64,000 nucleotides of DNA from Lachnospiraceae bacterium (lineage in GTDB: Bacteria; Bacillota; Clostridia; Lachnospirales; Lachnospiraceae), in NCBI GenBank assembly GCA_028693165.1, contig JAQUVX010000008.1, forward strand, positions 104,177 through 168,176, given 5' to 3'. This document shows positions 1-4,446 of the stretch, one piece after another. The position numbers and the translations under genes are program-made. The notes under the pieces are model-generated. The model searched no databases and was not told where the DNA came from. It saw only the letters and a program-made list of their open reading frames with translations. Within the stretch, counting starts at the first letter, position 1, and each line of letters starts with the position of its first letter.

Positions 1-334
1 CGCCCACCAGAACCGCTCCGGAATTGCCGGCCGATACGAATGCATCTGCCTCTCCCTGTTTGACCAGGTTCATGCCGACCACCATGGATGAATCCTTCTT
101 TTTGCGGATCGCATTGACCGGATGTTCATCGGTCTGGATGGTCTCGGAAGCCGGAACCACCTGAATCTGCTCTTTGGTAAAGGAATATTTGCTTAATTCC
201 TGCCTGATGGCCTCTTCCTGCCCAACCAGCAGAACCTGAATATCCTGCCTGCGTGACACCGCATCTGCCGCACCTTTTATAATCTCGCCAGGTGCATTGT
301 CTCCCCCCATAGCGTCTACTGCAACTTTTATCAT
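1..334 (-). CDS. plsX: Phosphate acyltransferase PlsX, 5' part (runs off window start)
   Basis: PlsX makes acyl-phosphate from acyl-ACP for phosphatidic acid synthesis at the membrane. Only the first 111 codons are present. The start is the ATG ending at 334, preceded by AAAGGAG. The N-terminus reads MIKVAVDAMGGDNAPGEI, the hallmark of PlsX, followed by the VGQEEAIRQEL region and the conserved SAGNSGAVLVG segment at the window edge. In many Clostridia and Bacilli plsX directly follows rpmF. Here it is separated from rpmF by about 3.3 kb of redox/sulfotransferase genes and has its own promoter. Confidence 0.95.
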   Translation of the reverse strand, partial: MIKVAVDAMGGDNAPGEIIKGAADAVSRRQDIQVLLVGQEEAIRQELSKYSFTKEQIQVVPASETIQTDEHPVNAIRKKKDSSMVVGMNLVKQGEADAFVSAGNSGAVLVG

Positions 335-379
335 GCCGTTTCTCCTTTCCGGCTGATGCCGGTAATCCATTCCTTAAAT

Positions 380-408
380 ACTATACTAAATAATGTTTTG
401 TAAATCAA
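380..408 (-). promoter_or_regulatory. Sigma-A-type promoter of plsX
   Basis: On the minus strand TTGATT (403-408) and TATAGT (380-385) are separated by exactly 17 nt. This gives plsX its own transcription start about 40-45 nt before its ATG. The A+T-rich stretch between this promoter and the terminator at 451-497 holds nothing else visible. Confidence 0.7.
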
Positions 409-450
409 TATATAAATCTTCTTTTTTTGCTGCGTCCTGCGAATTGTAAA

Positions 451-497
451 CAGGAAAAAGCCCCGGGAGCCAAATGCAGCCCCGGGGCTTTTTCCTG
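451..497. terminator. Bidirectional intrinsic terminator after the sulfotransferase gene
   Basis: A long inverted repeat pairs AGGAAAAAGCCCC with GGGGCTTTTTCCT. It has a G+C core and T-runs on both strands. It lies just past the sulfotransferase stop (509) and ends that operon before plsX. Confidence 0.9.
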
Positions 498-508
498 TTT
501 CCTATCGT

Positions 509-1933
509 TTATACCTGACCGTCTGTCACGCAGGCGTCAATCTTAAAGTTGTATCCCATGGTACCTTCCACCTCTGTCATCGACGGAATCGCGCTGTCGG
601 AAGCTCCCGGCACACGGAAATCATGACAGTTCAGTCTCTCGACCGGAGTCTCAACCGGCTTCTCAACCTGCGGAACATAGTCATATGGGTAACGGTACGC
701 ACGGTAAACCATCTCGCGCATGCCCTCAAACGGAGCGATGAACTCCCATACCACTTCCTTCTCCGGAGTCACCTCGAACATACGCATATAGCAGCCCTCG
801 CAGATCAGGGTGTTGCCGTTTGGCAGTCTCTGTGCGGAACTGATCAGCGGACTGTAAAACTTGGAATTTGCAACCAGTCCCAGCATTCCGCCGAAGGACA
901 GTCCCTTGAACTCCCATACAAGCTCCAGGGTCACCGGATCAATCTCCACGATACGGGAATGATCACGGATATCCGACTTTCCGCCGTCGGTAGTGGTTCT
1001 GCTCGGCATACCATACCCGGCCCAGCCGCCGTTATCGAAGATCAGGATGTTGCCCTCGCCCGGCAGTCCCTTCGGGATCATGTGGCAGTGATGCTGACCG
1101 ATGATCTGGCCGATGATGCGAAGCTCTTTGGATTTGGTAAAGTCCGGTCCGATCTGCCATACGATCTTGCCGGTTTTTTTGCTGATGATCGCCATGATAT
1201 TGGCCTCGCGCGCATCCCAGATGATATTGTCCGGATGGAAACGCTCGTCACCTGCATCGTACCATTTGTTCGGTCCCAGCATACTCATGGAGTTGATGTG
1301 CATCCAGTCGCCCTGGCCGCCGCCGTTCTCATGGTTGTTTGGATTGCGTGCCAGCACGTTCTTCGCGATCTCGTCAAAGCCAAGCTCCGCGAAGTGCTTG
1401 CTTGCATGCCACTCCCACACGATATTGCCTTCCCAGTCAACCTCGATGAACACGTCGTCCAGCAGGCGATGCTCACTGATCTTCTTGTTGTAGACATCCT
1501 CATGACACAGGATCAGGGTGTTGCCGCTGTCGGTCTTGCACTCCATCCCCGGCACATAATAGCCGACCGGATTGCCCTCACGCTGATAGTCATGATGCTG
1601 ACGTGCGATCCAGCGCTTGTCGCCTTCATCGTCCACTTCTTCTTTTTTGTCAAATTTCCATACTACCTTGCCGTCCCAGTCAATCTGTACCAGATCAGTC
1701 TGATCCTGATACCCGAATTTCGGATCACGCAGTCCCAGACTTCCCATCAGATAGCCGCCCGGAAGCAGTTTGTTCGGGAATCCCTGAACACCCTTCCAGC
1801 ATTTCACAACATTGCCGTTCATGTCAACCAGAATGGCTCCGATGCCCTGGCACTGCATCAGGGTGTAGCCGTTCCATGCTTTCTCAGGATTGTAGATCGT
1901 CGTTCCCATCGGATAAACACTGTAAAGTCCCAT
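509..1933 (-). CDS. Cytosolic arylsulfotransferase (ASST)-like beta-propeller protein
   Basis: 474 aa, similar to aryl-sulfate sulfotransferases, which transfer sulfate between phenolic compounds without PAPS. Propeller-blade repeats of the type VQIDWDGKVVWKF, IEVDWEGNIVWEWH and VEIDPVTLELVWEF recur along the protein. ASST-like His-rich blocks are visible: RQHHDYQ (~111-117), DWMHINS (~209-215), GQHHCHMIP (~279-287), RDHSRIVEID (~323-332) and SSAQRLPNGNTLI. There is no signal peptide or lipobox, so it should be cytosolic, unlike the periplasmic E. coli enzyme. Nine cysteines are present, two as CEGC. The start is the ATG nine bases after GGAGG; an upstream TTG in frame is less likely. It lies 42 nt downstream of a thioredoxin gene in one operon. 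The substrate is unknown, and the catalytic assignment is by family only. Confidence 0.8.
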   Translation of the reverse strand: MGLYSVYPMGTTIYNPEKAWNGYTLMQCQGIGAILVDMNGNVVKCWKGVQGFPNKLLPGGYLMGSLGLRDPKFGYQDQTDLVQIDWDGKVVWKFDKKEEVDDEGDKRWIARQHHDYQREGNPVGYYVPGMECKTDSGNTLILCHEDVYNKKISEHRLLDDVFIEVDWEGNIVWEWHASKHFAELGFDEIAKNVLARNPNNHENGGGQGDWMHINSMSMLGPNKWYDAGDERFHPDNIIWDAREANIMAIISKKTGKIVWQIGPDFTKSKELRIIGQIIGQHHCHMIPKGLPGEGNILIFDNGGWAGYGMPSRTTTDGGKSDIRDHSRIVEIDPVTLELVWEFKGLSFGGMLGLVANSKFYSPLISSAQRLPNGNTLICEGCYMRMFEVTPEKEVVWEFIAPFEGMREMVYRAYRYPYDYVPQVEKPVETPVERLNCHDFRVPGASDSAIPSMTEVEGTMGYNFKIDACVTDGQV

Positions 1934-1975
1934 TTTCAAAATCCTCCTTATGTAATATGAATTTTAACGCACCCC

Positions 1976-2290
1976 TTAAATACGATTCTCGATGGCGTCC
2001 ACGTAATCGTCTTCCTCGTGATTGCCTGCGAGCTTCTCCACAACCTCACCATTATCGAAAATAACGACCTGGGGCACGCCCTTCATCATCATCTTCTCAA
2101 ACAGTGCCGCTTCCTCTTCCACGTCTACCTCATAGAACGGAAGTTTCCCCTTGTAATCTTCTTCCAGATCTTCCAGTACCGCGTGAACCCCCTGACAGAC
2201 ATGACAGCTTTTTCTGGAGAAAATGACCAGACAAGTCTCGCCGTCATTCTCTACATATTCGTCAAATGCACGCGAATTTAATTTCTTCAT
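1976..2290 (-). CDS. Thioredoxin-family protein (CHVC active site)
   Basis: 104 aa, one thioredoxin fold. The active site is SCHVC (Cys29 and Cys32), without the Trp-Cys-Gly-Pro-Cys of classical TrxA. The cis-proline loop is GVPQVV (Pro73), and a VIFDNGEVVEKLAG strand follows. The start ATG has AGGAGGAAG upstream. It is co-transcribed with the downstream arylsulfotransferase and divergent from the thioredoxin-reductase-like gene, so it is probably the dedicated thiol carrier between the two. It is most likely cytosolic because no signal sequence is present. Confidence 0.88.
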   Translation of the reverse strand: MKKLNSRAFDEYVENDGETCLVIFSRKSCHVCQGVHAVLEDLEEDYKGKLPFYEVDVEEEAALFEKMMMKGVPQVVIFDNGEVVEKLAGNHEEDDYVDAIENRI

Positions 2291-2326
2291 GTTGCGCTTC
2301 CTCCTGCATCTCCTGTATTTGTTAAT

Positions 2327-2355
2327 AGTATAACAGCTTCCGAAAGGACAAACAA
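2327..2355 (-). promoter_or_regulatory. Promoter of the thioredoxin-sulfotransferase operon
   Basis: TTGTTT (2350-2355) and TATACT (2327-2332) on the minus strand are separated by 17 nt. They lie about 37 nt before the thioredoxin ATG. Confidence 0.7.
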
Positions 2356-2386
2356 TAGCACAGGCTATGGTAAAAATAAAAAATTA

Positions 2387-2395
2387 TGCTAAAAT
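2387..2395 (+). promoter_or_regulatory. Extended -10 element of the reductase-like gene
   Basis: TGCTAAAAT fits an extended -10 box (TGnTAAAAT), with no good -35 hexamer upstream. It lies back to back with the thioredoxin promoter, so the two divergent transcription units share about 145 bp of control region. Confidence 0.45.
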
Positions 2396-2436
2396 AAAAG
2401 ATAGAAGTCAGAAAACAATCGAATGGAGGAACGATT

Positions 2437-3600
2437 ATGGATACAATGTATGATTTGATTATCATCGGTGCGGGTCCTGCAGGACTGGCTGCCGGTATTT
2501 ATGGAGGACGTGCACACCTCAATACACTGATTCTGGAAAAGAGTACCGTCGGCGGCCGCGCCTACACGACCCGCGAGATCGTCAATTATCCGGGCATCCC
2601 GACCACATCCGGCCCGGATCTGACCGAGAAGATGGCGGAACATGCCAAAAACTTCGGCGTGGAGATCCGGCGCGAACCGGTCAAGGGCATGGACGTGACG
2701 GGTGATGTCAAGCTCGTCAACACAAGAAAGCACCAGTACGGAGCAAAGGCTGTCATCCTGGCAACCGGCACCAGCGCCCGGATCCTGGGCATTCCCGGAG
2801 AAAAAGAGCTGACCGGACAGGGCGTCGCCTACTGTGCCACCTGTGATGCGGAATTTTTCCAGGATCAGCATGTCGTTGTCGTGGGAAGCGGCGATCAGGC
2901 CATCGAGGAGGGCATGTTTATCACCCGCTTTGCCAGCCGCGTGACCGTAGTGGTTCTGCACGATGAGGGCATCCTTGACTGCAACAAGCAGGCTGCCGAG
3001 AAGGCACTGCATCACCCGAAGATGGATTTTGTCTGGAACAGTGTTCTGACGGAGGTCTGCGGGGAGGAACAGGTCACCGGCGTCAAAATCAAAAATATCA
3101 AGACAGATGCAGTCACGGACTTTGCCTGCGACGGTGTGTTCTTCTTCGTCGGCATGATCCCGGAGACCAAATGGCTGCCTGATGAGCTTGCCAAAGACTC
3201 CCGCGGCTGGATGCACGTCAGCGAGCGGATGGAGACTAATGTGCCGGGCATCTATGCCGTCGGCGATGTCCGCGACAAATATCTGCGTCAGGTATCCACC
3301 GCGATCTCGGACGGTGCCATCGCCGCCACGGCCGCAGAGCGCTACATTGAAGATATGAACGATCTGCGCGAGCAGGTCTTAGAGAGCAAAGAGCCCGTGA
3401 TCCTCGGTTTCTGGAGTCCGGAATATCAGAGCGGCTTAGATGCCATCTCTGCGATCGACTCTCCTTACCGGGTCATCGAGATCGACGTTTCCCGCAAGAA
3501 TGTCTGGGCAAACCGTTATCAGATCACGTTAAACGAAGAGCAGCCCGCCGCAGCTCTGTTGATTGTCGATGGCGAGGTCAGCCAGAAGCTTTCCCTTTAA
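2437..3600 (+). CDS. Thioredoxin-reductase-like flavoprotein with degenerate thioredoxin-like C-terminal domain
   Basis: 387 aa; TrxB proteins are usually about 310-320 aa. Residues 1-318 form the FAD/NAD(P) disulfide reductase: GAGPAG (11-16) binds FAD, CATC (133-136) is the redox dithiol, GSGDQA (150-155) is the second nucleotide site, and GIYAVGDVRD is the C-terminal FAD motif. The HRRxxxR motif of NADPH-specific TrxB is replaced by VLHDEGILD, so the electron donor may not be NADPH. Residues 319-387 resemble a thioredoxin half (PVILGFWSPEY... IEIDVS... PAAALLIVDGE), but SPEY stands where WCxxC would be, so it is redox-dead. The ATG has GGAGG nine bases upstream. It is divergent from thioredoxin and sulfotransferase genes, which suggests a dedicated reductase system. 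Confidence 0.85.
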   Translation: MDTMYDLIIIGAGPAGLAAGIYGGRAHLNTLILEKSTVGGRAYTTREIVNYPGIPTTSGPDLTEKMAEHAKNFGVEIRREPVKGMDVTGDVKLVNTRKHQYGAKAVILATGTSARILGIPGEKELTGQGVAYCATCDAEFFQDQHVVVVGSGDQAIEEGMFITRFASRVTVVVLHDEGILDCNKQAAEKALHHPKMDFVWNSVLTEVCGEEQVTGVKIKNIKTDAVTDFACDGVFFFVGMIPETKWLPDELAKDSRGWMHVSERMETNVPGIYAVGDVRDKYLRQVSTAISDGAIAATAAERYIEDMNDLREQVLESKEPVILGFWSPEYQSGLDAISAIDSPYRVIEIDVSRKNVWANRYQITLNEEQPAAALLIVDGEVSQKLSL

Positions 3601-3613
3601 ACATGAATTTGAT

Positions 3614-3664
3614 CATCAAAAAAGAGCCTTCACAAAAATGTGAAAGCTCTTTTTTTGATGATTT
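3614..3664. terminator. Bidirectional terminator between the reductase-like gene and rpmF
   Basis: AAAGAGCcTTCAC and TGTGAAaGCTCTTT pair, flanked by A- and T-runs that also pair. It serves the convergent (+) reductase-like gene and (-) rpmF. Confidence 0.9.
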
Positions 3665-3676
3665 CTAAATTTGCAA

Positions 3677-3859
3677 TTAGTCCTCAACGCTAACGATTTC
3701 TTTCTTGTTGTAAGAACCGCAAGCTTTGCAGACTCTGTGAGGCATCATAAGTGCGCCGCACTTGCTGCATTTTACTAAGTTCATAGCGCTCATTTTCCAG
3801 TTAGCTCTACGCTTATCTCTTCTTCCTTTGGAAGACTTATTCTTTGGGCAGATAGACAT
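3677..3859 (-). CDS. rpmF: 50S ribosomal protein bL32
   Basis: 60 aa, full length. The basic N-terminus (SKGRRDKRRANWKM) is typical of bL32. A four-cysteine zinc ribbon follows, CSKC ... CKAC, so this is the C+ (zinc-binding) form. AAGGAGGTG precedes the ATG. The gene starts three bases after DUF177 stops, the classical yceD-rpmF pair. The hairpin at 3614-3664 ends the transcript here, so plsX is not obviously in the same operon. Confidence 0.98.
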   Translation of the reverse strand: MSICPKNKSSKGRRDKRRANWKMSAMNLVKCSKCGALMMPHRVCKACGSYNKKEIVSVED

Positions 3860-3862
3860 GGT

Positions 3863-4390
3863 TTACACCTCCTTAAACTTTTGAAATATATCCTGGATTG
3901 CTGACATTCTTGGGTCTGGCGAACTTGTATCACAAGAACATTTTGTGTGATTTAAATTCGCACCACATCTATTGCAAATGCCTTTACAGTCTTCCCTGCA
4001 CAATACGCGGATTGGCAGATTCAACAACAGTTCGTTGCTGAGCAACCGGTCTACATCCAGATTATAGCCGCTTACATAGGGCTGTTCATCGAGTTCCTGC
4101 ACGTGGTCTGCCTCTGTCTTGCTCATATCCAGTTCTTCATCCAGTTCAAGCTTGAACGGACAATCAACCGGCTCTAAGCACCGGGCACATGGAATCTGCA
4201 AAGTAAGCTCTGCGTTTCCCTGTACCAGCAGCTTGCGGTCTCCGAGATTTCGGATACGAAGCTTCACAGGTAGTTTGGACACGACCGGATAATCTTCTTC
4301 TTTTGTATGAAGGGCTTCCATATCAATGTCACACGTGTAAGTGTTCTCTTTTCCATTGCTGGAAAACAGCTCTGTTAAATTAATTAGCAT
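3863..4390 (-). CDS. yceD: DUF177 (YceD family) rRNA-accumulation protein
   Basis: 175 aa. This family is almost always encoded directly before rpmF; YceD is linked to 23S rRNA accumulation and its plant homologue to 23S rRNA processing. Cys pairs are seen in the middle (CARCLEPVDCPF) and at the C-terminus (CREDCKGICNRCG ... CSC), consistent with metal-bound folds. AGGAG lies six bases before the ATG. The promoter at 4418-4446 gives a very short leader. Function in ribosome assembly is inferred from the family and from rpmF coupling. Confidence 0.92.
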   Translation of the reverse strand: MLINLTELFSSNGKENTYTCDIDMEALHTKEEDYPVVSKLPVKLRIRNLGDRKLLVQGNAELTLQIPCARCLEPVDCPFKLELDEELDMSKTEADHVQELDEQPYVSGYNLDVDRLLSNELLLNLPIRVLCREDCKGICNRCGANLNHTKCSCDTSSPDPRMSAIQDIFQKFKEV

Positions 4391-4417
4391 ATTAATCTCC
4401 TAATACGCACCTATAGT

Positions 4418-4446
4418 ATTATACATAGACGGATTTATTTTGTCAA
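4418..4446 (-). promoter_or_regulatory. Consensus sigma-A promoter of yceD-rpmF
   Basis: Perfect TTGACA (4441-4446) and TATAAT (4418-4423) on the minus strand with a 17-nt spacer. Strong constitutive transcription is expected, as fits a ribosomal protein gene, independent of the upstream ackA. Confidence 0.9.

Follow-up and report, generated by a model that had tools for sequence, protein, structure and literature searches.

A thioredoxin-linked arylsulfotransferase of a Lachnospiraceae bacterium as a putative reductive sulfate-ester cleaving system

A stretch of 64,000 nucleotides from a gut-type Lachnospiraceae bacterium (GenBank assembly GCA_028693165.1, contig JAQUVX010000008.1; C16:104177-168176 in our contig numbering), referred to below as the window, was analysed for three genes that sit between rpmF and plsX and that encode an arylsulfotransferase (ASST) independent of 3'-phosphoadenosine-5'-phosphosulfate (PAPS), a thioredoxin (Trx) and a flavoprotein similar to thioredoxin reductase (TrxR). 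The source genome is 3.6 Mb in size and 94% complete. A previous reading of this DNA, made from the letters alone (the sequence-only reading), had placed the three genes here, and their open reading frames (ORFs) and Pfam scores showed them to be intact. The ASST gene (509..1933, minus strand) starts with ATG, with an alternative in-frame TTG 6 nt further upstream, and encodes a protein of 474 amino acids made of a propeller domain and a C-terminal tail. The protein scored 79.4 bits against PF05935, above the curated Pfam cut-off of 24.2, and 52.5 bits against PF14269 (cut-off 27), whereas PF01507, the family of the adenosine-5'-phosphosulfate (APS) and PAPS reductases, was absent from its Pfam matches at E values up to 1. 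No signal peptide was seen, as judged by hydropathy only, the maximum mean value being 0.98 over a 19-residue span within the first 60 residues, and the ASST is apparently cytosolic, as had been predicted.

The thioredoxin gene (1976..2290, minus strand) lies 42 bp upstream of the ASST gene on the same strand, so that both form an operon-like pair, and encodes 104 amino acids with a CHVC redox motif (2195..2206, minus strand). It scored 60.9 bits against PF00085 (cut-off 23.5), but its 51.1 bits at the equivalog level were below the cut-offs for TrxA (140) and thioredoxin (96.8). Against the DSBA family PF01323 it reached 16.3 bits, under the cut-off of 25.6 and thus below the level of a DsbA/DsbL-type partner. 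The TrxR-like gene (2437..3600, plus strand) encodes 387 amino acids with 160.5 bits against PF07992, 343.0 bits against TIGR01292 (cut-off 343.45) and a CATC redox motif (2833..2844, plus strand). About 80 additional residues at its C-terminus (3352-3600) resemble by eye a thioredoxin domain without CxxC, in which FWSPEYQSG replaces the WCxxC region. The three genes had been regarded as one set; this held for Trx and ASST, whereas the TrxR-like gene is outside the operon-like pair and is transcribed divergently. The codons of both motifs and of the residues with coordinates given below were checked.

The window ASST has nine cysteines (residues 28, 45, 132, 143, 283, 378, 381, 436 and 468), as counted before. 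Their conservation was followed in relatives of the same type (window-type ASSTs), first in an alignment of 90 rows with fragments below 400 amino acids excluded (first sample, 79 loci out of at least 421 confirmed relatives) and then in a second sample of 30 loci obtained from 40 places. The latter includes a C-terminal fragment (L187) and the window itself (L174), so that two of the 120 rows are the window, and perhaps comes in part from the same species as the first (L168 is near L050 on the tree). Cys468 (codon 530..532, minus strand), in the C-terminal tail, was the only conserved cysteine of the nine, being present in 119 of the 120 rows (89/90 and 30/30, own locus included), with the runner-up cysteine column at 32 of 90. 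Most of the surrounding tail varies, with the following valine kept in 93% and a few other positions also conserved, and the single row lacking Cys468 has no tail and no Trx nearby. As a separate candidate acceptor, the cysteine two residues past the catalytic histidine (QHHC in the window, QHAC in longer ASSTs) was considered and dropped, as it was found in 15 of the 90 window-type rows and in 17 of 20 long ones.

The active site could be matched to that of the E. coli enzyme, with the mapping being indirect, by way of one of the long ASSTs that the source genome encodes and of a profile that matches the sulfotransferase Cpz4. His281 (1091..1093, minus strand), kept in 120/120 rows, would be the equivalent of the sulfated His436, and His212 (1298..1300, minus strand) and Arg242 (1208..1210, minus strand) those of His356 and Arg374, respectively; together with Asn214 and Thr375, these residues were conserved in 119-120 of the 120 rows. 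A direct search of the window sequence against solved structures gave no match at E values up to 10. The predicted model of the protein has a propeller fold, as in ASST and Cpz4, and the Cpz4 match stops at residue 425, leaving the Cys468 tail outside the matched region.

The association with thioredoxin was surveyed in the bacterial family, where PF05935 was detected at E <= 1e-15 in 27 of 150 genomes, at 51 places; these 27 genomes were searched for PF01077 and PF00085, and ASSTs with E < 1e-90 were taken as the long type. Trx was encoded within 2 kb of the ASST or fused to it in 6 of 8 window-type (0.05 expected by chance), 5/17 long (0.11 expected) and 0/26 other ASSTs, although the Poisson values assume independent ASSTs and tandem genes violate this. 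The co-occurrence in relatives that the sequence-only reading had called for was thus found in the family, although in only 12 loci of a wider set of 87. As three of five other-type ASSTs examined had hydrophobic N-termini, exported ASSTs may serve as a natural control. Single-protein ASST::Trx fusions were found in L024, L025, L027, L063 (two copies) and L178, in which the conserved tail cysteine comes after the propeller and before the Trx domain. A tree was made from 61 chosen rows, namely all Trx-linked ASSTs, most of those linked to lipoyl genes, some of the others and three long ASSTs, with fusions cut at 500 amino acids. On it, the Trx label requires 7-8 changes, of which three or more are forced by well-supported branches, and none of 500 shuffles was as low. 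In five loci (L034, L035, L040, L184 and L185), a long-type ASST adjoins a window-type one, followed by Trx and TrxR in L184 and L185.

Among the 87 window-type loci, Trx was beside or fused to the ASST in 12, a lipoyl set was present in 11 and neither was present in 64, with some contigs being short. A dedicated thioredoxin is therefore a minority trait among the sampled window-type loci. The lipoyl set comprises a GcvH-like protein, together with a dihydrolipoyl dehydrogenase and a third protein, about 280 amino acids long, that has a TATGCTRC-type start, and was found (L049, L050, L052 and L068, for example) in Desulfosporosinus, Desulforamulus, a Desulfotomaculum metagenome-assembled genome (MAG) and some Deltaproteobacteria and SAR324 MAGs. 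As judged from the gene order, in the Desulfosporosinus-type relatives a different dithiol system occupies the same place beside the ASST. In L050 (2028-7846) the ASST lies amid the GcvH-like protein, the 280-residue protein, dihydrolipoyl dehydrogenase, LipB and LipA, seemingly a dedicated lipoyl carrier system. The recurring 280-residue protein, as represented in L056 (13388-14242), has by eye a glutaredoxin-like start and scores weakly against NrdG2 (57.2 bits, cut-off 131.15), and no Pfam family was assigned to it at 1e-5. Lipoate-binding proteins of the sHdr/LbpA systems take part in sulfur oxidation with Hdr-like complexes, and a GcvH-like carrier and dihydrolipoyl dehydrogenase (with lipB and lipA in L050) are what these systems share with the ASST loci of the relatives. 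Separately, nitrogenase-like genes for NifH and NifD/K-type homologs were observed immediately upstream of the window-type ASSTs of Ruminiclostridium hungatei (L086, 6374-9965, with Ssu-like transport genes) and of a Chlorobiaceae MAG (L073, 4820-8562, the second and third genes being judged by eye). Both NifH-like proteins score under the curated nifH cut-off, and these loci raise the question of a nitrogenase-like reductase in sulfate-ester metabolism.

Besides the window ASST, the source genome encodes three longer ASSTs. A cluster on contig C2 consists of a PF03600-type carrier (DASS-like by eye), TrxR, Trx (CGPC), two ASSTs and AsrA, AsrB and AsrC, along with siroheme-type genes (by eye) and a divergent Crp/Fnr-like regulator below curated cut-offs. 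The three Asr proteins (L012) passed their curated cut-offs (433.5/323.15, 336.9/288.6 and 358.4/324.1 bits, respectively). The carrier-TrxR-Trx-ASST-AsrABC cluster was detected in five genera, represented by the source genome and by G015, G033, G046 and G059, with one ASST in G015 and with AsrB not called by ORF picking in G033. Cys578 was common to all 20 aligned long ASSTs, with a gap at this position in five others. Among the alignments used, A2 held 40 of the 43 available sequences (L058, L078 and L104 left out). The third long ASST of the source genome lies near a sulfatase-like gene and genes resembling an EIIC transporter of the phosphotransferase system (L013, 6662-13044; all by eye).

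Sulfite reductase was encoded within 6 kb of 9/17 long ASSTs (from five genomes, of which four have a pair of ASSTs in the cluster), 2/8 window-type ASSTs and 0/26 others. In L023 a sulfite-reductase-type protein follows the ASST directly, in L102 the ASST is followed by a PF01053 pyridoxal-phosphate (PLP) enzyme of Cys/Met metabolism and a PF01077 sulfite-reductase-type protein, and in L026 the sulfite reductase within 6 kb is joined by a similar PLP enzyme and sulfur-carrier-type genes, both by eye. At the genome level, 11 of the 12 genomes that encode window-type or long ASSTs had a sulfite reductase, versus 60 of the 138 other genomes of the family (Fisher P 0.0015), and the only one of the 12 without it, G018, is 78% complete. 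The source genome has AsrABC, and no match to PF01747 (ATP sulfurylase) or PF01507 (PAPS reductase) was found in it at E <= 0.001. Sulfate activation as a source of sulfite was looked for in 12 genomes: PF01747 was found in none and PF01507 in six, the source genome being negative (hits unsorted among CysD, CysH and others).

The sequence-only reading had left the acceptor and the redox requirement open, and a specific proposal for both, Cys468 and release of sulfite by Trx, can now be made from the residues and gene neighbourhoods. It seems to us fairly probable that the trio cleaves sulfate esters reductively, in that the sulfuryl group would pass from His281 to Cys468 and, by the action of Trx, leave as sulfite. 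Onto the observed gene content, conservation, fusions and co-location, the following putative steps may be placed. An aryl sulfate would donate its sulfuryl group to His281, with release of the phenol, as expected from homology to the E. coli ASST. Sulfo-His281 would then hand it to Cys468 on the flexible tail, giving S-sulfocysteine, the neighbouring thioredoxin would attack this bond, yielding sulfite and a Trx disulfide, and the TrxR-like protein would reload the oxidized thioredoxin. The net reaction would resemble that of APS/PAPS reductase, but would start from an existing sulfate ester and involve neither ATP sulfurylase nor ATP. In sulfuryl transfer potential, simple aryl sulfates are close to PAPS, and the reaction would accordingly be favourable. 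A role for Trx as substrate-level reductant that releases sulfite is suggested by three features: only one cysteine is conserved, ASST and Trx occur as fusions, and some cytosolic ASSTs have linked sulfite reductases. The longer ASSTs in the TrxR-Trx-ASST-ASST-AsrABC cluster of the source genome would do the same through their different conserved cysteine. The first half of this mechanism is modelled on the E. coli ASST, in which His436 becomes sulfated according to a 2026 review (PMC13426309), and the second on the plant APS reductase, for which an S-sulfocysteine intermediate is described, with release of sulfite by a C-terminal glutaredoxin-like CxxC domain and glutathione (PMC9426629).

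Several observations weigh against this reading. Neither a sulfite reductase nor a transporter was seen beside the window trio, and sulfite reductase was close to only 3 of the 87 window-type loci. A dedicated Trx is not universal, 64 loci having neither Trx nor lipoyl genes nearby; 37 of them, largely from Paenibacillaceae, carry a MarR-like gene, mostly with Ssu-like transport genes. The long ASSTs, only 5/17 of which have Trx nearby, conserve Cys578 and not the Cys468 tail. With a genome that is 94% complete, the missing sulfate-activation genes could be an assembly gap. The acceptors given for ASSTs assayed in vitro are, in the papers sampled, phenols and alcohols (PMC13426309), and in two of these papers the words thiol, cysteine and sulfite were all absent. 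Regarding the loci without a dedicated reductant, assimilatory APS/PAPS reductases are described as dependent on thioredoxin or glutathione (PMC10322725), so that the general cellular thioredoxin could do the job.

The alternatives differ in which part of the proposal they replace. A donor other than an aryl sulfate, either another sulfate ester or a sulfonated compound, with the mechanism otherwise unchanged, appears rather unlikely. The transporters neighbouring the ASSTs of relatives do resemble carriers of sulfonates (SsuA-like, 62.9 bits) and of anions (DASS-like, 120.5 bits), both below the respective cut-offs of 163.5 and 198.6, but the active-site residues match those that bind the aryl sulfate in the E. 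coli ASST. It is quite unlikely that the Trx pair just keeps the ASST reduced or switches its activity, the enzyme being an ordinary phenol-to-phenol sulfotransferase under redox control, even though Trx and TrxR adjoin a protein with nine cysteines and the Dsb-ASST operons, as the review presents them, tie ASSTs to disulfide chemistry (PMC13426309). Since only one of the nine cysteines is conserved, the ASST is unlikely to contain a conserved disulfide and offers no conserved pair to switch, and the sulfite reductase in the same clusters would be left unexplained; the idea that the pair maintains a nine-cysteine enzyme in reduced form thus found no support. Direct sulfonation of a small thiol (cysteine or a coenzyme thiol) or of thioredoxin, with Trx releasing sulfite and Cys468 not acting as acceptor, would fit the long ASSTs, whose conserved cysteine is a different one, and Trx could be the direct acceptor; it was nevertheless considered improbable, because it does not explain the near-absolute conservation of Cys468, which extends to loci without nearby Trx. 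Finally, a sulfatase-like or detoxifying role of the ASST in shuttling sulfate between phenols, with the thiol genes there by chance, would agree with known ASST activities (PMC13426309) and with the 64/87 relatives lacking Trx or lipoyl genes, but is very improbable given a Trx co-location in the family far above chance and recurrent on the tree, the existence of fusions and a source genome in which no sulfate-activation domains were found for the use of free sulfate.

The proposed reductive system can be compared with known ones. Its component families are known, and the combination and the predicted reaction are new to us; among the open-access matches listed, as judged by title, start of abstract and term counts, none joins ASST to sulfite formation. 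In Pseudomonas putida, the SftR locus reported by Kahnert et al. in 2002 is said to place an arylsulfotransferase-like gene in a sulfur-scavenging context, and would be possible prior art. The ASST of E. coli CFT073, which goes with DsbL/DsbI (PDB 3ELQ, 3ETS), has in common the propeller fold and the active-site His and Arg residues, and its CNENGLC insert is absent from the aligned long ASST of the source genome, through which the comparison was made. As described in the review, it is likewise encoded with a thiol-disulfide protein, but is periplasmic, has oxidative partners and carries an additional N-terminal beta-sandwich domain (PMC13426309). The long ASSTs of the source genome appear to resemble the Cluster II arylsulfotransferases (ASTs) of Bacillota (D. 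hafniense DhAST among others), whose PAPS-independent chemistry is alike and whose reported uses are phenol and alcohol sulfation (PMC13426309); the window ASST differs from these long ASSTs in being shorter, in lacking PF17425 and in lying on a separate branch of the tree. Cpz4 (PDB 9KF4, 9KF6) is, unlike the window ASST, a caprazamycin sulfotransferase of antibiotic biosynthesis (PMC13426309). For most ASTs, the review states that natural acceptors have not been identified and that physiological roles are poorly understood (PMC13426309). In the plant APS reductase, S-sulfocysteine is released as sulfite by a CxxC domain that is sometimes a C-terminal fusion, which parallels the model (PMC9426629), whereas APS/PAPS reductases belong to PF01507 and use APS as donor, and the window ASST lacks PF01507 and its predicted donor is an ester, without ATP.

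Regarding the surroundings of the trio, window positions 1-408 (78% identity) and 3675-4446 (82%) were collinear by blastn with a site of Brotaphodocola catenula (L134) at which nothing interrupts rpmF-plsX, so that an inserted cassette can be delimited to 409..3674. Within it, terminator-like hairpins were predicted downstream of the ASST gene (456..505, -25.1 kcal/mol) and between the reductase gene and rpmF (3606..3665, -26.4 kcal/mol), each computed on a single stretch without shuffled control. According to kinship codes, the source genome and G164 belong to one genus. The ASST locus of G164 matches the Brotaphodocola catenula record L033 over 4,422 bases with 100% identity; in G164, rpmF and plsX are contiguous and its own cassette copy is on a different contig. 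plsX lay at most 1.5 kb from rpmF in 1 of 14 same-genus loci (own locus excluded) versus 5 of 7 loci when other families of the order were examined, so the claim that both genes are usually neighbours applies mostly outside the genus, whereas the claim of an inserted cassette was upheld by the empty site. The region downstream of rpmF varies in nearly all same-genus genomes (L125-L138), as in a variable insertion site. With the source genome counted in, window-type ASSTs were present in 2/16 genomes of the genus, 8/150 of the bacterial family and 24/398 of the phylum. The Trx-ASST order recurs with different neighbours in L030-L033, which are from Candidatus Lachnoclostridium relatives and B. 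catenula, and TrxR is divergent in three of these four loci (L030 being a short contig). Overall, the cytosolic-looking ASST, the reductive thiol pair and the inserted cassette of the sequence-only reading stood, and the idea of a nine-cysteine enzyme kept reduced by the pair was not supported.

A wider proposal, which in our opinion could go either way, is that these loci represent an undescribed route of the sulfur cycle, in which aryl sulfates would act as pre-activated sulfate and be reduced to sulfite by an ASST together with a dithiol carrier, which would be thioredoxin or, in Desulfosporosinus-type relatives, a lipoyl carrier. In bacteria of gut and soil, the sulfite would be used without ATP to form sulfide or for assimilation, with Cys468 as a swinging sulfo-carrier convergent with APS reductase. 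The proposal points to one residue, Cys468, and to one product, sulfite. If true, cytosolic ASSTs would have a role in the conversion of aryl sulfates to sulfite and then to sulfide, the phenol sulfation that they perform in vitro may be a side reaction, and sulfate conjugates would be linked to hydrogen sulfide in bacteria in which, as in the source genome, no sulfate-activation domains were found.

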